From Ruania albidiflava DSM 18029 (GTDB lineage Bacteria; Actinomycetota; Actinomycetes; Actinomycetales; Beutenbergiaceae): a DNA stretch of 64,000 nt. The stretch lies in NCBI RefSeq assembly GCF_000421225.1, contig NZ_ATWL01000007.1:62001-126000 (forward strand). Direction: 5' to 3'. Shown piece after piece: positions 3,086 to 41,897 of this stretch. Every line of letters begins with the position of its first letter. The first letter of the stretch is position 1. A program made the translations under genes and the position numbers. The notes below the pieces were generated by a model. That model was not told where the DNA came from and did not search any database. It saw only the letters and a program-made list of their open reading frames with translations.

Positions 3086-4537
3086 CTACTCCGGCTCCGG
3101 GGCGTTCGCCTCGAGGAAGTGGTACACCTCGGTGTCGTCCACCCCGGGAAACCTTCCGGCGGGCAACGGGCCGAGGATCTGGGCATGGGAGACGGCACTC
3201 GGCCAAGACGCCTGCTGCCAGCGCTCGCTGAGTGCTTCGTCCGGGAGCCGGCAGCAGCTCTTCTCCGGGCAGGTGGAAGTGGCCCGGCGCTTGGTCTCCC
3301 GGCCGCGGAAGTGCTTCGCGTGCGCGAACGGTACCCCGAGGGTGATGGAGAACTCACCGGAGTCGGTAGCCCCGGTCTGCGTGGAGCACCAGAAGGTCCC
3401 CTTCGCCGTGTCCGTGTACTGGTGGAACTCGGTGGTGCGGGTGCGCCGGGCGAACGCGGTCCGGGCGGCCCAGTGCCGGCACACCGGTTGCCCCTCGATC
3501 GCACCGGTGACGTCGGCGGTGAACGTGACCCCGTCGTTCTCGTATCCCTTGAACAGGGCGCCGTCCTCGTTCACCCGCAGGTAGTGCACCGGCAGGTCCA
3601 GGTGCGAGGTGGCCAGGTTGGTGAACCGGATCGCCGCGAAGTCGTGCGTGACGCCGAACGCGTCCCGGAAGTCTTCGATCGCCAAGTCCTTCGCCCGCAG
3701 CCGTGGCTGGAGGAACTCCAGTGCTGCGCTGCGCGGGATCAGGCAGGTGGCGGCGAAGTAGGCGATCTCCATCCGCTGGTGCAGGAAGTCGCCATAGCTG
3801 GTGGGTTGGGTGTGCCCGAGCAGCCGGTGCCCGATCGCCTGCAGCGCTAAGGAACGCAGACCGTGACCGCCGGGGATGGAGGCCGGCGGCAGGTAGATTC
3901 GGCCGTTCTCCAGGTCGGTGACAGTCCGGGTGGAGTGCGGCAGGTCGGGCACGTGGATGATCTCGAAGCCGAGTGAGCGGGCCAGGGTGGAGACAGTGGA
4001 GTGGGTGAGCGCCCCGGAGATGTACCCCGCCTTGCGGATCACCTCCTCACCGAGCTCCTCGATCTCTGGTAGGTAGTTGTTCGCCGCCCGCATCGCCAGG
4101 CGCATCTTGGTGTTTGCCCGCCGAGCTTCTTCCGGGGTGGCGATCGCCTCAGCGGCACGGCGGGCCAGCTCGCGGTGCAGCGCGACCAGGGACTCCAGCA
4201 CCGGGATCGGCAACGACTTCGTGGGGCGTACCGCCGGGGCTCCGAGCGCCGCGAACAGCGGGGATGACTGCGCGCGGTGCAGCTCGATCTCCAGGGCCGC
4301 CCTCCGGTCCGGGGGAGGTGCGGACTCCAGCAGCTCAGCCGCTGTGGTGCCCAAGGTGGCGGCGATCGACTGCAGCAGCGACAGCCGTGGTTCCCGTCGT
4401 CCGTTCTCGATGTGGGACAGCTGGCTGGCGGTGGTACCGGTCGCCTCGGCGAGCTGGGCGAGGGTGAGGTCGCCGCGGGTGCGGAAGTGTCGGATGCGCT
4501 TGCCGAGGGTGACCGGGTCGGTGCGCTCGTCAGCCAT
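3086..4537 (-). CDS. XRE-family acyl-CoA/acetate metabolism regulator (RamB/PrpR/ScfR type)
   Basis: 483 aa. An N-terminal Cro/C1 helix-turn-helix (about residues 11-65, LAQLAEATGTTASQLSHIENGRREP), a central region with the IrrE/metallopeptidase-like fold (ALQAIGHRLLGHTQPT) and a C-terminal short-chain fatty acyl regulator domain give the architecture of RamB and PrpR. Those control acetate, glyoxylate or propionate metabolism. The C-terminus has clustered cysteines (PVCRHW, FWCST, STCPEKSCC), comparable to the region where PrpR binds an Fe-S cluster. I chose ATG 4537 rather than an upstream TTG because a -10 box (TATCGT) lies 6 nt before it. It is divergent from pckG, its likely target. Confidence 0.88.
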   Translation of the reverse strand: MADERTDPVTLGKRIRHFRTRGDLTLAQLAEATGTTASQLSHIENGRREPRLSLLQSIAATLGTTAAELLESAPPPDRRAALEIELHRAQSSPLFAALGAPAVRPTKSLPIPVLESLVALHRELARRAAEAIATPEEARRANTKMRLAMRAANNYLPEIEELGEEVIRKAGYISGALTHSTVSTLARSLGFEIIHVPDLPHSTRTVTDLENGRIYLPPASIPGGHGLRSLALQAIGHRLLGHTQPTSYGDFLHQRMEIAYFAATCLIPRSAALEFLQPRLRAKDLAIEDFRDAFGVTHDFAAIRFTNLATSHLDLPVHYLRVNEDGALFKGYENDGVTFTADVTGAIEGQPVCRHWAARTAFARRTRTTEFHQYTDTAKGTFWCSTQTGATDSGEFSITLGVPFAHAKHFRGRETKRRATSTCPEKSCCRLPDEALSERWQQASWPSAVSHAQILGPLPAGRFPGVDDTEVYHFLEANAPEPE

Positions 4538-4664: not shown

Positions 4665-6569
4665 ATGCGCAGCGCCCTCGACCTGCAGGACCGCACCACG
4701 CCCGGCGCGGAGGCTTCGCACCAGAAACCACTGCCCACGCCGCACCGGAAACCGGGGCACACGCTGCCACGCGGTCTGGGTGCGGCGCGCGACTTCGTGG
4801 CCGAGGTGGCGGACCTGACCGAGCCGGATGCCGTCGTCTGGTGCGACGGCAGCGAGGTGGAGCGAGACCGGCTGAACGAGGAGCTGTGCGCGGCGGGCAC
4901 GTTCGTCCGCCTCGACCCGCAGCTGCGGCCCAGCTCCTTCCTGGCCCGCTCTGACCCGAAAGACGTCGCCCGGGTGGAGGCCGCGACGTTCATCTGCGCC
5001 GAGGACGAGGCGGACGCCGGACCCACCAACAACTGGCGCGACCCGGCGCAGATGCGCGCCGAGCTGGCGCACGTGTTCGCCGGGAGCATGCGCGGGCGCA
5101 CCATGTACGTGGTGCCGTTCTCCATGGGGCCGGTCGGGGGACCGACCGCCAAGGTGGGCATCGAGATCACGGACTCGCCATATGTGGTGGTGAGCATGCG
5201 GATCATGACCCGCATGGGTGAGGCGGCGCTGGCCCAGGTCGAGGCGGGCGACGAGTGGGTGCCCGCGGTGCACTCAGTGGGGATGCCGCTGGTGGGCGAT
5301 GACGGTTCGGAGCGCGCGGACGTGCCGTGGCCGTGCAACGAGACGAAGTACATCAGCCACTTCCCGCAGGACCGGGAGATCTGGTCCTACGGGTCCGGGT
5401 ACGGCGGCAACGCGCTGCTCGGGAAGAAGTGCTACGCGCTGCGGATCGCCTCGGCGCTGGCCCGGGACGAGGGCTGGCTCGCTGAGCACATGCTGCTCAT
5501 CCGGCTCACCCACGCCGACGGCCGGCGGTTCCACGTGGCGGCGGCGTTCCCCTCCGCCTGCGGGAAGACGAACCTGGCGATGCTGCGTTCGGCGCTGCCG
5601 GAGTGGACGGTGACCACGCTCGGCGACGACATCGTCTGGCTACGCCCTGGCGAAGACGGTCGGTTGTGGGCGATCAACCCGGAGGCCGGGTTCTTCGGGG
5701 TGGCACCGGGCACCGGGGTGCGGACCAACCCCACCGCCGTCGAGACGCTGACCCACGACGTCATCTTCACCAACGTGGCCCGCACCGATGACGGCGACGT
5801 GTGGTGGGAGGGTCTCACCCCCGAACCACCGGACCACCTGGTCGACTGGCTCGGCGAGGACTGGACGCCACAGGTTGCGGCTGAGACCGGCCGCCCTGCC
5901 GCGCACCCGAACTCGCGGTTCACCGTGTCGGCGGCGCAGTGCCCGATCATCGACCCGGACTGGGACGACGGTGCGGGAGTGCCGCTGGACCTCATCCTGT
6001 TCGGCGGCCGGCGCGCGACGAACGTGCCGCTGGTCACCGCCGCCAGGGACTGGGAGCACGGCGTGTTCTTCGGTGCCAGCATCTCCTCGGAGCGCACGGC
6101 AGCCGCCGAGGGGACGATCGGTGACATGCGCCGGGACCCGTTCGCGATGCTGCCGTTCTGCGGCTACAACATGGCCGACTACTTCGGCCACTGGCTCGCG
6201 GTCGGTGCGCAGCTGGGTGCCCGCGCGCCGCAGATCGCTGCCGTGAACTGGTTCCGGAAGGGGGCGGACGGCTCGTTCCTGTGGCCCGGGTTCGCCGAGA
6301 ACGCCCGCGTGCTGGACTGGCTGCTGCGGCTCGTCGAGGGCGAGGTGACCGGCAAACAGACGCCGCTGGGCCTGGCGCCGGCGGACGGTGAGCTGCACCT
6401 GCACGGCCTCGACCTCTCAGCTGAGGACCTGGCCGAGCTGGAACGCGTGGATCCAGCCGCCTGGCACGCTGAGGCGGACAGTATCGAGGAGTACTTCGTG
6501 CAGTTCGGCGACCGGCTGCCGGAGGCCCTGCGGGACCAGCTCGCCGCGCTGCGGGAGCGGCTCGGGTAG
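4665..6569 (+). CDS. pckG: phosphoenolpyruvate carboxykinase (GTP)
   Basis: 634 aa. The enzyme interconverts oxaloacetate plus GTP and phosphoenolpyruvate plus GDP and CO2, the first step of gluconeogenesis. GTP-class hallmarks are the kinase-1a loop [13 protein letters not shown] (about residues 295-307), the metal-binding [10 protein letters not shown], substrate-loop sequences ([19 protein letters not shown]) and the C-terminal [18 protein letters not shown] 4665 is chosen because a GAAAGG ribosome site lies 8 nt upstream; an upstream ATG at 4602 would add a non-conserved stretch. It stands divergent from a RamB/PrpR-like regulator, which fits acetate or fatty-acid responsive control. Confidence 0.96.
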
Positions 6570-35637: not shown

Positions 35638-36651
35638 ATGCCTGAGCCGGACCCGGATGCCACCCCTGCGGTGACCATCTATGACGTCGCCCGTGCGGCC
35701 GGTGTGGCACCCTCCACTGTGTCCCGGGCCTTCTCCCGGCCCGGGCGGGTGAACGCCGAGACCGGGGAGCGGATCCGGCAGATCGCTGCGCAGCTGGGCT
35801 ACCGGGCCAGACCCCAGGCGCGGGCCACTTCGCCGACGCGTTCCTCGATGCTCGCTGTGGTGCTGGCCGACCTGGCGAACCCGGTGTTCTACGAGCTGGT
35901 CCGTGGCGCCGGGTCGGCGTGCGAGGCTGCCGGGTACACGATGATGCTGGCCGAGACCGCGGAGTCGGCGGTGCGGGAGCGGGCCACGCTGGAGCGGGCG
36001 CTGGAGTCGGTGGACGGGCTGGTGCTCACCGCTTCCCGGATCTCTGACTCGGCCATCCGGCAGGTGGCGAAGGTCAAGCCGGTGGTGGTGGTCAACCGGG
36101 TGGTGCCGGGGGTGCCGTCGGTGGTGATCGACGTGGAGCGGGGCACGTTCCGGAGCGTGCAGCACCTGGTGGAGCTCGGCCACGAGACGGTCACCTACCT
36201 GTCCGGTCCGGAGGCGTCCTGGGCGGACGGGATGCGCTGGCGCGGGTTGCGCCGGGCCGCTGAGGAGCTCGGTGTGCGGATCCGGCGCACCGGTCCGTTC
36301 GCGCCCACGGTGAACGGCGGGGTGCAGGCGGCAGCGACCTGGGCGCAGCACCGCAGCAGCGCCGTGGTGGCCTACAACGACCTGGTCGCCATCGGCTTCA
36401 TCCGCGGGGCGGGTCGGCTCGGGGTGAGCGTGCCGGGGGAGGTGTCGGTGGTCGGCTTCGACAACAGCGCCATGGCCGAGCTGGTCAGCCCGGAGCTGAC
36501 CACTGTGGCGGCGCCGTTGCACGCGCTCGGGCGAACTGCTGCGCAGAACGTGCTGGCGATGGTCGGCGGGGCGCGCTCGCAGGCCCCCGAGCCGATGCAG
36601 CTGCCCACCCGCCTGGTGGTGCGGGAGACCACAGCGCCGGTCGCCGGCTGA
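35638..36651 (+). CDS. LacI-family transcriptional repressor
   Basis: 337 aa. The N-terminal HTH with hinge (TIYDVARAAGVAPSTVSRAFSRPGRVNAETGERI, about residues 12-45) is followed by a periplasmic-binding effector domain (AVVLADLANPVFYELVRG to the C-terminus). A -10 box TAGTCT (35625-35630) ends 7 nt before the ATG, so the gene is probably leaderless, and this fixes the start. The effector is likely a uronate or other sugar acid, given the flanking uxaC/uxuB and isomerase/gnd genes. Confidence 0.94.
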   Translation: MPEPDPDATPAVTIYDVARAAGVAPSTVSRAFSRPGRVNAETGERIRQIAAQLGYRARPQARATSPTRSSMLAVVLADLANPVFYELVRGAGSACEAAGYTMMLAETAESAVRERATLERALESVDGLVLTASRISDSAIRQVAKVKPVVVVNRVVPGVPSVVIDVERGTFRSVQHLVELGHETVTYLSGPEASWADGMRWRGLRRAAEELGVRIRRTGPFAPTVNGGVQAAATWAQHRSSAVVAYNDLVAIGFIRGAGRLGVSVPGEVSVVGFDNSAMAELVSPELTTVAAPLHALGRTAAQNVLAMVGGARSQAPEPMQLPTRLVVRETTAPVAG

Positions 36652-38151: not shown

Positions 38152-39543
38152 GTGACCCAGCGACTGTGCCGCGGACTGCCCGGTACGCCAGAGACTGCCG
38201 CCCCGGTGCGGATCGTCCACCTCGGGGTGGGCAACTTCCACCGCGCCCACCAGGCCTGGTACACCCAGCACGCCCCGGACGCCGCGGACTGGGGGATCGC
38301 CGCCTTCACCGGCCGCCGCCCGGACCAGGCCGAGGCGCTCGCACCGCAGGGCGGCCTGTACTCCCTGATCACCAAGGGTGCCGACGGCGACCAGGTGGAG
38401 GTGATCTCCTCGATCGTGGCCGTGCACGCCGCCAGCGAGCACGAGACCTACCTGGCGTACCTGGCCAGGCCGAGCACCGCCGTCGTGAGCATGACGGTGA
38501 CCGAGCACGGCTACCGCCGCGACGCCGACGGGCACCTGGACACCTCCGCTGCGGACGTGGCCACCGACGTGGCCGCGCTGCGGGCGGACCCGCGCGCGGT
38601 GGTGACGTCGATGCCGATGCGGCTGCTCGCCGGGCTGCTCGCCCGCCGGGAGGCCGGTGCCGGGGCGCTGACCATCCTGCCGTGCGACAACCTGCCGGAC
38701 AACGGGGAGGTCACCCGCACCCTGGTGCTGGACGCCGCCCGAGCCGTGGACGCCTCGCTCGTGGGCTGGGTGGAGGAGCACGTGGAGTTCGCCACCTCGA
38801 TGGTGGACCGGATCACGCCGGCCACCACCGACGCCGACCGGGAGCTCGTGCGTGAGCGGATCGGCTACGAGGACGCCTCCCCGGTGCCCACCGAACCGTT
38901 CGCCGAGTGGGTGGTCAGCGGGCAGTTCCCTGCCGGGCGACCCGCATGGGAGGACGCCGGCGTGCAGTTCGTGGCCGACGTGGCCCCGCACGAGCGCCGC
39001 AAGCTGTGGCTGCTGAACGGCTCGCACTCCCAGCTGGCCTACGTAGGCAGCGTGCGCGGGCACGAGACCATCGACGCCGCGATCGCCGACCCCGCCTGCC
39101 GCAGCTGGGTGGAGCAGTTCTGGGACGAGGCACAACGCGGGCTCGGGCTGCCGGAGCAGGAGGTGGCCGCCTACCGAGCGGCGCTGCTGGACCGGTACGC
39201 GAACCCGCGGGTGCGGCACCTGCTCGCGCAGATCGCCATGGACGGCTCGCAGAAGCTGCCGGTGCGTACCCTGCCCGCGGTGAACGCCGAGCGCGCTGCC
39301 GGGCGGGTGCCCACCGGGGGAGCGACCACGCTCGCCGGCTGGGTGCTGCACCTGCGCGGTGTCGGTGCCCCGGTGAACGACGCCGGTGCCGGGCCCGCAC
39401 AGGAGGCTGCGAACGCCGGGCCGGTGGCCGAGGTGGTGCCCGCGGTGCTGGAGACGCTGCAGCCCGGCCTCGGTGACGACGCGGACCTGGTGGCCGCCGT
39501 AGTAGCCCAAGCGGAAGCCATCCCCCTCCCGCAAGGTCACTAG
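38152..39543 (+). CDS. uxuB: mannitol dehydrogenase family protein, probable fructuronate reductase
   Basis: 463 aa. The N-terminal VRIVHLGVGNFHRAHQAWYTQ is the NAD-binding motif of the long-chain mannitol dehydrogenase family; LPCDNLPDNGEVTR and the catalytic-Lys region ERRKLWLLNGSHSQLAYVG are conserved. Next to uxaC it should reduce D-fructuronate to D-mannonate with NADH. No uxuA (mannonate dehydratase) is in the window. GTG 38152 follows the site GAGGAGAGA. The gene's last codons lie within the repeated terminator element. Confidence 0.88.
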   Translation: MTQRLCRGLPGTPETAAPVRIVHLGVGNFHRAHQAWYTQHAPDAADWGIAAFTGRRPDQAEALAPQGGLYSLITKGADGDQVEVISSIVAVHAASEHETYLAYLARPSTAVVSMTVTEHGYRRDADGHLDTSAADVATDVAALRADPRAVVTSMPMRLLAGLLARREAGAGALTILPCDNLPDNGEVTRTLVLDAARAVDASLVGWVEEHVEFATSMVDRITPATTDADRELVRERIGYEDASPVPTEPFAEWVVSGQFPAGRPAWEDAGVQFVADVAPHERRKLWLLNGSHSQLAYVGSVRGHETIDAAIADPACRSWVEQFWDEAQRGLGLPEQEVAAYRAALLDRYANPRVRHLLAQIAMDGSQKLPVRTLPAVNAERAAGRVPTGGATTLAGWVLHLRGVGAPVNDAGAGPAQEAANAGPVAEVVPAVLETLQPGLGDDADLVAAVVAQAEAIPLPQGH

Positions 39544-39582
39544 AACCCGGGCACCCGTGCCCGCTTCTTATTGACATTGCGG
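39531..39582 (+). terminator. 52-bp palindromic terminator-like element, copy A
   Basis: The outer arms GCAAGGTCA and TGACATTGC (one mismatch) enclose a perfect inner hairpin CGGGCAC-CC-GTGCCCG (39548-39563) followed by CTTCTTATT, a stem plus T-rich tail as in Rho-independent terminators. The left arm lies in the last uxuB codons. About 45 of 52 positions match copy B at 40609-40660. Confidence 0.75.
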
Positions 39583-39595
39583 ACGGTGGGCCGGG

Positions 39596-39604
39596 TTGTC
39601 CACA
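39596..39604 (+). promoter_or_regulatory. DnaA-box-like 9-mer TTGTCCACA
   Basis: An exact match to the GC-rich actinobacterial DnaA-box form, just upstream of the DUF559-type gene. It is a single copy without neighbours, so not an origin. Confidence 0.3.
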
Positions 39605-39646
39605 GGGGGTCGCCGCTCGGTCGGCGCGCACCGGCAGGCTGGGGTT

Positions 39647-40588
39647 GTGGTCACTGAGACGGTGCCGGCCTCCCGGCGAGCGTGGCGGCGGGCTCGCGCC
39701 CGGGAGCTCGCTGCGCCGTTCGGCGGTCTGGTGCACCGCCGAGACCTGCGCGCTGCGGGGATCGGCCGGGACGAGGTGCGCAGCGAGCTCCGCGGCCAGC
39801 GGTGGACGGCGCTGGGCCGGCACACGATCGGCATCGACACCGCGCTGGTGCCCCAGGACTGGCCTGCGCGAGCCGCGTGGGCGGTGTGGGAGACCGGCTC
39901 CGGGGCGGTGCTCGACGGCGTCTCCGCACTGCTGGCCGCCGGGCTGGAGAACTACACCGAGGACCAGATCGTGGTCGCCGTGCCGCGGGGTACCTGCCCG
40001 GTGCGGCTGCCCGGTGTACGGGTGCGCAGCCACCGGGTGATCACCCCGGCGCCGGTGCCCGGACTGCCGCGGCTGGCCGTCGAGGCCGCAGTGGTGAACG
40101 CGACCACGTGGGCGGTCAGCGAGCGGCAGGCCGCGCTGATCGTCATCCTCGCCGTACAGCAGCGGCTGACCACCGCCGAGCGACTGACCGCAGAGGTGCA
40201 CAGTCGGCGCCGGGTCCGCCGCCGCGCCTTCCTGCGTGACCTGCTCCGGGAGGTCGGTGGCGGGGTGCAGGCGCTCGGCGAGCTGGACTTTGCCCGGTTG
40301 TGCCGCCAGCACGGCCTGCCGGAGCCCTCCCGGCAGCGGGTGTGCCGGGCCCCGCGCGGGCGGATCTACCTGGACGTGTGGTGGGAAAGGCTGTCGGTCG
40401 GGGTGGAGATCGACGGGGTGCAGCACCAGCAGGGGTTGAACCCGGTGGAGGATGCCCTGCGGGACAACGAGGTGCGCCTGCGCGGAGGGCCGGTGCTGCG
40501 GATCCCCTCTCTGGCCCTGCTCACCGACCCGGGGGTGTTCATGGGGCAGGTGCGGGAGCTGCTGACCCGCGCGGCCATAGCTCGGTAG
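39647..40588 (+). CDS. DUF559-type (Vsr-like) domain protein with AbiEi-like N-terminus
   Basis: 313 aa. The N-terminal part (about 1-100) resembles the winged-helix region of AbiEi-like proteins common in actinobacteria (FGGLVHRRDLRAAGIGRDEVRSELRGQRW). The C-terminus (about 210-313) has the restriction-endonuclease-like core: LDVWWERLSVGVEIDGVQHQQ, EDALRDNEVRLRGGPVLRIP. Nuclease activity is inferred only. The gene has no partner and is bracketed by two copies of the same palindromic element, 52 bp each. The GTG 39647 start is probable; an earlier in-frame TTG at 39596 overlaps the DnaA-box-like site. Confidence 0.72.
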   Translation: MVTETVPASRRAWRRARARELAAPFGGLVHRRDLRAAGIGRDEVRSELRGQRWTALGRHTIGIDTALVPQDWPARAAWAVWETGSGAVLDGVSALLAAGLENYTEDQIVVAVPRGTCPVRLPGVRVRSHRVITPAPVPGLPRLAVEAAVVNATTWAVSERQAALIVILAVQQRLTTAERLTAEVHSRRRVRRRAFLRDLLREVGGGVQALGELDFARLCRQHGLPEPSRQRVCRAPRGRIYLDVWWERLSVGVEIDGVQHQQGLNPVEDALRDNEVRLRGGPVLRIPSLALLTDPGVFMGQVRELLTRAAIAR

Positions 40589-40607
40589 CTCGCCGCCGCT
40601 GCCGGCT

Positions 40608-40660
40608 CGCAAGGTCACGTGGATCCGGGCACGGGTGCCCGCTTCTTATTGACCTTGCGG
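40608..40660 (+). terminator. 52-bp palindromic terminator-like element, copy B
   Basis: The outer arms CGCAAGGTCA (40608-40617) and TGACCTTGCG (40650-40659) are a perfect 10-bp pair. The inner hairpin CGGGCAC-GG-GTGCCCG (40626-40641) is followed by CTTCTTATT. It lies 19 nt after the DUF559-type gene. Loop bases differ from copy A (CC/GG), as expected for a duplicated structure rather than coding sequence. Confidence 0.75.
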
Positions 40661-40763: not shown

Positions 40764-41897
40764 ATGCAGTTCGGAGTCTTCACCATCGGTGACGTCACAC
40801 CCGACCCCACCACGGGCCGCGTGCCGACCGAGCACGAGCGGATCCAGGCGATGGTGGCCATCGCGAAGAAGGCCGAGGACGTGGGCCTGGACGTGTTCGC
40901 CACTGGGGAGCACCACAACCCGCCGTTCGTGCCCAGCTCGCCGACCACGATGCTCGGCTACGTGGCCGCCCAGACCGAGCGGATCCTCCTGTCCACCGCC
41001 ACCACGCTGATCACCACCAACGACCCGGTCAAGATCGCCGAGGACTACGCGATGCTCCAGCACCTGGCCGACGGTCGGGTGGACCTGATGCTCGGGCGTG
41101 GCAACACCGCCCCGGTGTACCCCTGGTTCGGCAAGGACATCCGCCAGGGCCTGCCGCTGACCGTGGAGAACTATCAGCTGCTGCGCAAGCTCTGGGACGA
41201 GGAGGTGGTGGACTGGGAGGGCCGGTTCCGCACCCCTCTGCAGGGTTTCACCGCCACCCCGCGGCCGCTGGACGGGGTGCCCCCGTTCGTCTGGCACGGC
41301 TCGATCCGCACCCCGCAGATCGCCGAGCTGGCCGCCCGCTACGGGGACGGCTTCTTCGCCAACAACATCTTCTGGCCGAAGGAGCACTTCCAGGCGCTCA
41401 TCGGCCTGTACCGGGAACGCTACGAGCACTACGGGCACGGCAGCGCCGACCAGGCGATCGTCGGCCTCGGCGGGCAGATCTTCATGCGGAAGAACTCCCA
41501 GGACGCGGTGCGTGAGTTCCGCCCGTACTTCGACAACGCCCCGGTGTACGGGCACGGGCCGAGCCTGGAGGAGTTCACCGACGCCACCCCGCTGACCGTC
41601 GGCAGCCCGCAGGAGGTCATCGACAAGACGCTCACGTTCGCCGAGTCCTTCGGCCACTACCAGCGCCAGCTGTTCCTGCTGGACCACGCCGGCCTGCCGA
41701 CCACGACCGTGCTCGAACAGCTCGACCTGCTCGGCGAGATCCTGCCCACGCTGCGCGCCGAGTTCGACAAGAACCGCCCCGCGCACGTCCCGGACGGTCC
41801 CACCCACGCCGCCCGGGTGGCGGCCGCCGGCGGTCCGGTGGACCTCACGCCGCAGGTGGAGATCGACCTGCACTCCGGCAGCGCAGTGCGCCGGTGA
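40764..41897 (+). CDS. LLM-class flavin-dependent oxidoreductase (CE1758-like)
   Basis: 377 aa of the bacterial luciferase-like TIM-barrel family (MQFGVFTIGDVTPD, FATGEHHNPPFVPSSPTTMLGYVAA, VDLMLGRGNTAPVYPWFG). It uses reduced flavin. The order LLM oxidoreductase, then MarR, then a small FMN reductase matches the actinobacterial pair known as CE1758/CE1759 (LLM duo). The substrate is unknown. ATG 40764 follows a GAAGG site. It is transcribed with the next two genes. Confidence 0.88.
   Translation: MQFGVFTIGDVTPDPTTGRVPTEHERIQAMVAIAKKAEDVGLDVFATGEHHNPPFVPSSPTTMLGYVAAQTERILLSTATTLITTNDPVKIAEDYAMLQHLADGRVDLMLGRGNTAPVYPWFGKDIRQGLPLTVENYQLLRKLWDEEVVDWEGRFRTPLQGFTATPRPLDGVPPFVWHGSIRTPQIAELAARYGDGFFANNIFWPKEHFQALIGLYRERYEHYGHGSADQAIVGLGGQIFMRKNSQDAVREFRPYFDNAPVYGHGPSLEEFTDATPLTVGSPQEVIDKTLTFAESFGHYQRQLFLLDHAGLPTTTVLEQLDLLGEILPTLRAEFDKNRPAHVPDGPTHAARVAAAGGPVDLTPQVEIDLHSGSAVRR

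Follow-up and report, generated by a model that had tools for sequence, protein, structure and literature searches.

Among the systems closest to the one described here, the REP and REPIN palindromes that go with a RAYT (TnpA-REP) enzyme (REPtrons) are reported chiefly behind genes and between convergent or unidirectional genes (PMC3733652, PMC3116915). AbiEi was reported to bind two 23-bp inverted repeats that are 3 bp apart; the promoter of AbiEi itself has inverted 23-bp repeats to which it binds, and the same holds for a homologue and its promoter (PMC7319586). The protein VsrA was reported to contain a DUF559 domain (PMC12907096). No published link between DUF559 and palindromic repeats was found in the open-licence PMC literature, where the papers with both words draw no such connection. 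In this work, a 52-bp near-palindrome and the nuclease gene bracketed by two copies of it were analysed in a 64,000-nucleotide stretch of the Ruania albidiflava DSM 18029 genome (contig NZ_ATWL01000007.1, positions 62,001 to 126,000, hereafter the window, numbered from its first base). We propose that the nuclease and the element on either side of its gene are a cognate pair, and that the two form a REP/REPIN-like system with the Vsr-like nuclease as mobiliser; we put the probability of this reading at roughly 60%. The features at its centre are the following.

39530..39581, + strand: element A, the left bracket, a 52-bp near-palindrome reaching into the 3' end of the gene upstream, whose TAG stop (39541-39543) it provides
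39647..40588, + strand: nuclease gene, 313 amino acids, AbiEi-like at about residues 15-191 and Vsr/DUF559-like nuclease at about 195-313, from an AbiEi profile and conserved residues
40608..40659, + strand: element B, the right bracket, a 52-bp near-palindrome just behind the nuclease gene

Two near-identical palindromes around this gene had been noted before from the letters alone (the original prediction); both are present, each one base away from the coordinates given then. A and B are identical at 45 of 52 positions, the runner-up 52-base match to A within the window reaching 27 of 52, and TTCTTATTGACNTTGCG with up to three mismatches has two matches in the window compared with 0.05 expected. 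Mirrored positions are complementary at 19 of 26 places in each copy. A ends 65 bases before the start codon of the nuclease gene, and B starts 20 bases past the last base of its stop codon (40586-40588). The CC of one copy and the GG of the other, formerly read as compensated loops, are the unpaired centre of the hairpin, where one is the reverse complement of the other, and therefore nothing is compensated.

The original prediction overlooked the matching of gene and palindrome, which recurs with many palindrome sequences. A relative of the nuclease at E ≤ 1e-20 was found in 41 of 396 genomes of the order, and 67 nuclease loci were taken from 35 of these 41 genomes, with shorter and some weaker places left out. 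A locus was counted as bracketed when its left and right palindromes agreed at 30 or more of 50 bases. By this measure 52 of the 67 loci were bracketed, compared with 15 of 670 pairs in which left and right sides had been shuffled and 3 of 62 outer windows. Among genes of similar length in the element-rich loci, 3 of 215 were bracketed, and these are the nuclease genes of the window's genome (G000) and of two further Ruania genomes (G007 and G003) among the eight compared; for the other genes the count was 0 of 212. The palindrome sequence varies between clades and also between the nucleases of one genome. At a protein identity of 0.7 or more, the palindromes were alike (≥60%) in 20 of 20 pairs, and protein and palindrome similarity were correlated between genomes (r 0.47, 0 of 2000 permutations). 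Nucleases within one genome shared a palindrome in 0 of 23 pairs, which is expected because of their protein divergence and shows only that the palindrome is not set by the genome as a whole. As a separate observation, two nuclease genes of the family lie close by in one locus (L230, G065:C11; matches at 102396 and 104428); palindromes surround the two genes and also lie in the space that separates them.

Dispersal was examined for two palindrome types, the first being the Ruania element. A covariance model made from 14 copies found at least 30 distinct sites in G000 at E ≤ 1, and for 29 of these E was under 0.01 on one strand or both, a count that is possibly low because it comes from the best 150 of 5874 candidates. 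At least 17 sites were found in G007 and at least 11 in G003 (12 with the pattern), also possibly low numbers, as the best 99 candidates were scored per genome; with the same scoring no element was found in the remaining five Ruania genomes. The element-bearing genomes are 3 of the 59 genomes of the order that were searched with the model, all of them Ruania. An exact-pattern scan of a collection in which 84,980 species have a single genome each gave 18 stretches, namely 15 in the Candidatus Ruania gallistercoris metagenome-assembled genome (G007) and 3 in Ornithinimicrobium murale; the scan may omit records near the window's genome, and G003 is not among its results. The REP-like family suspected in the original prediction is thus borne out, with about 29 sites across this genome and further ones in two other Ruania genomes, and the search of the genome for the consensus showed the element many times elsewhere, so the notion that it occurs only here fails.

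The close form of the nuclease is found in G000, G007 (83%), G003 (69%) and O. murale (57%), and it is bracketed in all four. Within Ruania, the element accompanies the close nuclease in 3 of 3 genomes as opposed to 0 of 5 of the others (Fisher p 0.018). O. murale carries both the nuclease gene and the repeat. In its locus (L109), short tandem palindrome arrays at about 4700-4870 and 6088-6273 provide three copies on each side of the nuclease gene. Long palindromes were also seen close by, on both sides, at four loci of distant homologues (L132, L134, L136 and L141; 31-33%) from other Ruania genomes and G003, and those near L132 and L134 have GCGGTTG...CAACCGC in common; the system may thus extend to nucleases outside the clade analysed here.

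The second palindrome type, TCGAKGTA-N26-TACMTCGA with at most one mismatch, was present in three or more copies in 8 of the 396 genomes (38, 20, 10, 9, 7, 6, 5 and 3). These are 8 of the 41 nuclease-bearing genomes versus 0 of the 355 others (p 7e-9); flanking copies are present by design of the pattern, and for each of the eight genomes copies at other places are listed as well. One or two matches were present in twelve more genomes, and the reversed pattern gave at most one per genome among the matches listed.

The positions of 58 of the 59 Ruania copies (L059 was left out) were analysed with gene calls from a simple purpose-written gene caller. Of the 58, 47 overlap a gene 3' end or lie within 50 bp of one, compared with 23% of control placements, which were all possible 52-base placements in the element-free gaps of the same loci; the median in this 3'-end analysis was 9 for the 50 copies having a 3'-end neighbour. 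Orientation could be assigned for 57 copies, one being without a called right neighbour. Junctions of convergent genes hold 25 of the 57, whereas 45 of the 336 junctions that lack the element are convergent (Fisher p 5e-7), and divergent junctions hold 8. For the second type, a subset of the copies in those genomes was used (28 sites, 29 copies), of which 25 overlap a 3' end or are at most 60 bp away from one, as opposed to 32% of control placements; 13 lie between convergent genes as against 14 of 163 junctions, and 2 between divergent genes. Annotated neighbours of the dispersed Ruania copies include dapB, glycine C-acetyltransferase and prfB; the earlier suggestion that copies flank variable genes is not supported for the dispersed copies, as several of the neighbours annotated are such ordinary or core genes, and it is the bracketed gene that is the variable one. 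Behind the orthologous dapB genes of the seven other Ruania genomes, the element present in G000 was not found. An element site of G007 or G003 shares both neighbours with 4 of 29 G000 sites and one neighbour with five more, and these counts are a lower bound because G007 is fragmented.

The protein between the brackets matches the PADLOC AbiEi profile with its residues 15-191 (E 8.4e-6). In an alignment of 43 sequences (40 of 65 listed references, the window protein, L097 and L109), the commonest such AbiEi profile matches 40 and methyl-directed restriction profiles match 10. Furthermore, E212, D243, E254, H260 and D269 are invariant in all 43 and D256 is present in at least 90%, in the order expected for the Vsr-like PD-(D/E)XK nucleases, whose catalytic site we take these acidic and histidine residues to be. 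The Pfam DUF559 profile (PF04480) gave 14.2 bits, below its cut-off of 20.6, and therefore DUF559 is a resemblance and no firm label; 6 of the 43 relatives match it at E 0.01 or better. In the PDB, the profile matched PvuRts1I, a restriction enzyme (E 0.0011), and 3hrl, which is endonuclease-like (E 0.024). A model of the nuclease part, with a predicted local distance difference test (pLDDT) score of 57, had the homing endonuclease I-Bth0305I as its best match (Z 5.4, root-mean-square deviation 5.1, 90 aligned), a Z that is low on that scale, and the full-length prediction (pLDDT 42) was too low for use. A phmmer search with the nuclease domain alone returned nothing relevant. A phage or plasmid origin was considered and rejected, as the palindrome pattern had 0 matches in the viral contigs scanned and no relative of the protein was found in the viral contigs or plasmids searched. 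Separately, the phage-set record MT837139.1 (Bacteriophage sp., human faeces, 7.6 kb, unannotated, metagenomic) holds a 48% identical nuclease relative at 3700-4521.

The AbiEi-like half, found in 40 of the 43 relatives, leads to another account, in which the protein is an autoregulator and the palindromes are only its binding sites, the left copy being its own operator and the dispersed copies other sites, with nothing mobile. This would agree with the promoter repeats bound by AbiEi and its homologue (PMC7319586), with the 65 bases from A to the start codon in the window, and with half-sites that are conserved as sequence. On the other hand, a matched copy also stands behind the gene, the dispersed copies are at 3' ends and seldom between divergent genes in either palindrome type, and few G000 sites keep their neighbours in G007 or G003, so we consider the operator account unlikely.

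Each half of the near-palindrome consists of an outer and an inner half-site with a variable 8-base spacer between them. For the consensus and the arm-pairing test, 53 of the 59 copies were used, six with a length other than 52 bp being dropped, and 42 of the 53 match GTCR-N8-CGGKCAC-NS-GTGMCCG-N8-YGAC exactly. On both strands, A and B fold far lower than their dinucleotide-shuffled versions (z -4.05 to -5.36). Paired positions in 14 copies amounted to 82.8%, no better than the shuffled mean of 84.0%. Within the spacer, own arms paired better than the arms of other copies in G007 (7 of 2000 permutations reach the observed value) and G003 (31 of 2000), and no such excess was seen in G000 (1742 of 2000), where own-arm pairing exceeded cross-copy pairing in the outer 10 bases (17 of 2000). 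An RNA fold as the main constraint was rejected, since covariation is absent or weak (97 of 2000 permutations reach the observed value in a further test). Judged from the aligned copies, the palindromes are kept as sequence half-sites more than as a fold. Rfam searches gave the elements no match, either in the window or in 20 loci, where the sole match was a cobalamin riboswitch in L109. Elsewhere in the window, at 36423-36506 inside a predicted gene, a sub-threshold match to Rfam DUF3800-VII (26.4 bits, cut-off 36.2) is probably due to chance.

On the + strand, A and B both present a stem followed by CTTCTTATTG, a terminator-like arrangement (2 found, 0.3 expected), and the hairpin may plausibly act as the terminator named in the original prediction. 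It could then be argued that the copies are ordinary bidirectional terminators, alike by gene conversion or common ancestry, with the nuclease as a passenger. The 3'-end position, the preference for convergent genes, the strong hairpins and the terminator-like core would all fit. Against this stand the matched, clade-specific pairs found around the nuclease gene and around none of the 212 other genes, the presence of the family in step with the nuclease, and invariant half-sites with weak arm covariation, which is not what a constraint on the fold alone predicts. Such an origin is therefore very unlikely in our opinion.

We give an equally small chance to a MITE or REP family that some other transposase moves and whose copies happen to enclose the nuclease gene. 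The palindromes are indeed short and without genes of their own, and few positions are common between genomes. Nevertheless, the nuclease and no other gene is bracketed repeatedly, with different palindromes, and the Y1 transposase (PF01797) was found in 0 of 8 Ruania genomes by a search that was positive in 5 of 14 controls, other transposase families not having been searched for. A RAYT/IS200 mobiliser was rejected on the same count.

The original prediction also raised a mobile cassette, and the part of this idea that stands is presence and absence. The unit and its neighbours are the following.

39530..40659, no strand assigned: cassette of element, gene and element, 1130 bases, missing at the corresponding site of 5 of the 8 Ruania genomes
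38152..39543, + strand: upstream gene, which we take to be mannitol-dehydrogenase-like, with its last residues and stop encoded by A
40764..41897, + strand: downstream gene, presumably LLM-class flavin monooxygenase-like, directly after the dehydrogenase-like gene in the empty-site genomes

In those five Ruania genomes, the dehydrogenase-like and LLM-like genes adjoin at the orthologous place, without the nuclease gene and without the element. The dehydrogenase-like protein of the window's genome ends in ...EAIPLPQGH, encoded by A, versus endings such as ...AITA. The empty sites and the A-encoded C-terminus therefore mean that gene and elements either arrived here or disappeared elsewhere together, as one unit. 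In another locus, one cassette is inverted in place with its flanks unchanged (L151 compared with L149 and L208). No gene was called between the nuclease gene and its metabolic-type neighbours, and no profile search aimed at AbiEii was made. That the palindromes are recombination sites for swapping or inverting defence genes of the nuclease type is the least probable account, as dispersed single copies without cargo are seen and the window gene sits between two metabolic-type genes without a called partner, even though the inverted cassette, the AbiEi and methyl-directed restriction profiles of the relatives and the similarity to PvuRts1I speak for it.

We hypothesize that the AbiEi-like half of the nuclease would bind the palindrome as two inverted half-sites, and that the Vsr-like half would nick or cut DNA at or near it. 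Repair or strand transfer could then place new palindrome copies, and sometimes the whole cassette, at new sites. Copies would persist where they are least harmful, that is, immediately behind stop codons, and there the hairpin may also serve as a terminator. In its working the system would resemble REP/REPIN with RAYT, with an enzyme unrelated to RAYT.

Several points weigh against the proposed cognate pair of nuclease and palindrome. Binding, cutting, movement and termination are steps that we infer, and no target-site duplication was evident in the flank base counts of 25 G000 copies; these flanks showed, as a target motif, only a C-rich left and a G-rich right side. At the sites compared between genomes, no insertion junction was placed to the base. 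The next structural match of the nuclease-part model, 3hrl, likewise has a low Z (Z 5.2, root-mean-square deviation 4.4, 88 aligned), and Foldseek gave 0 matches at E 0.001 or better for the nuclease-domain model. Of the 67 loci, 15 were below the bracket threshold, and the share of alike palindromes falls to 12% at protein identities of 0.6-0.7 and 7% at 0.5-0.6. The correlation between genomes is largely inheritance, because most close pairs are same-locus orthologues, and co-occurrence within the genus may come from one ancestral gain or loss. Moreover, four of the five element-free Ruania genomes have distant homologues only, and the fifth has none; therefore only the close form co-occurs with the element.

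If the cognate pair is real, the nuclease family, so far described only as DUF559- or AbiEi-like, gains a hypothesis of its function and, for each gene, a predicted DNA site. The pair would also offer a mobiliser unrelated to RAYT for palindromic repeats, some of which, the CGTC REPs, are reported without one (PMC3733652). As different nucleases go with different palindromes, mismatched-pair controls for binding and cutting tests are built in. The odds seem to us about even that these are examples of a large, undescribed class of mobile elements, in which AbiEi-like plus Vsr-like nucleases would each spread their own palindrome of about 50 bp to gene 3' ends, by homing-like cut-and-repair or hairpin nicking, independently of RAYT/REPIN and possibly with several pairs per genome.

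Compared with the known systems, the Ruania family resembles REP/REPIN-RAYT in its dispersed palindromes, in an enzyme gene flanked by the repeat, and in that several enzyme-repeat pairs can coexist (PMC3733652, PMC3116915). It differs in that the enzyme is AbiEi-like plus Vsr-like and no Y1 HUH transposase, and in an element of about 50 bp with about 12 to 30 copies per Ruania genome; with another kind of enzyme and no Y1 transposase in the eight Ruania genomes, it is therefore no member of REP/REPIN-RAYT. The CGTC-tagged REPs without a known transposase are alike in having palindromes near 3' ends and no RAYT alongside; Actinobacteria, the group to which Ruania belongs, are not mentioned in the paper that describes them (PMC3733652). 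The Vsr-like nucleases (I-Bth0305I, DUF559 proteins such as Caulobacter VsrA, and PvuRts1I) share conserved residues and a profile or tentative fold resemblance with the C-terminal part, whereas the descriptions found for them do not include a palindromic repeat family and the N-terminal AbiEi-like part differs. The AbiEi antitoxins, finally, are alike in the N-terminal profile match and in inverted-repeat sites of similar size (PMC7319586). Unlike them, the AbiEi-like half of the window protein is fused to a nuclease domain, and its putative sites are dispersed and lie at 3' ends.

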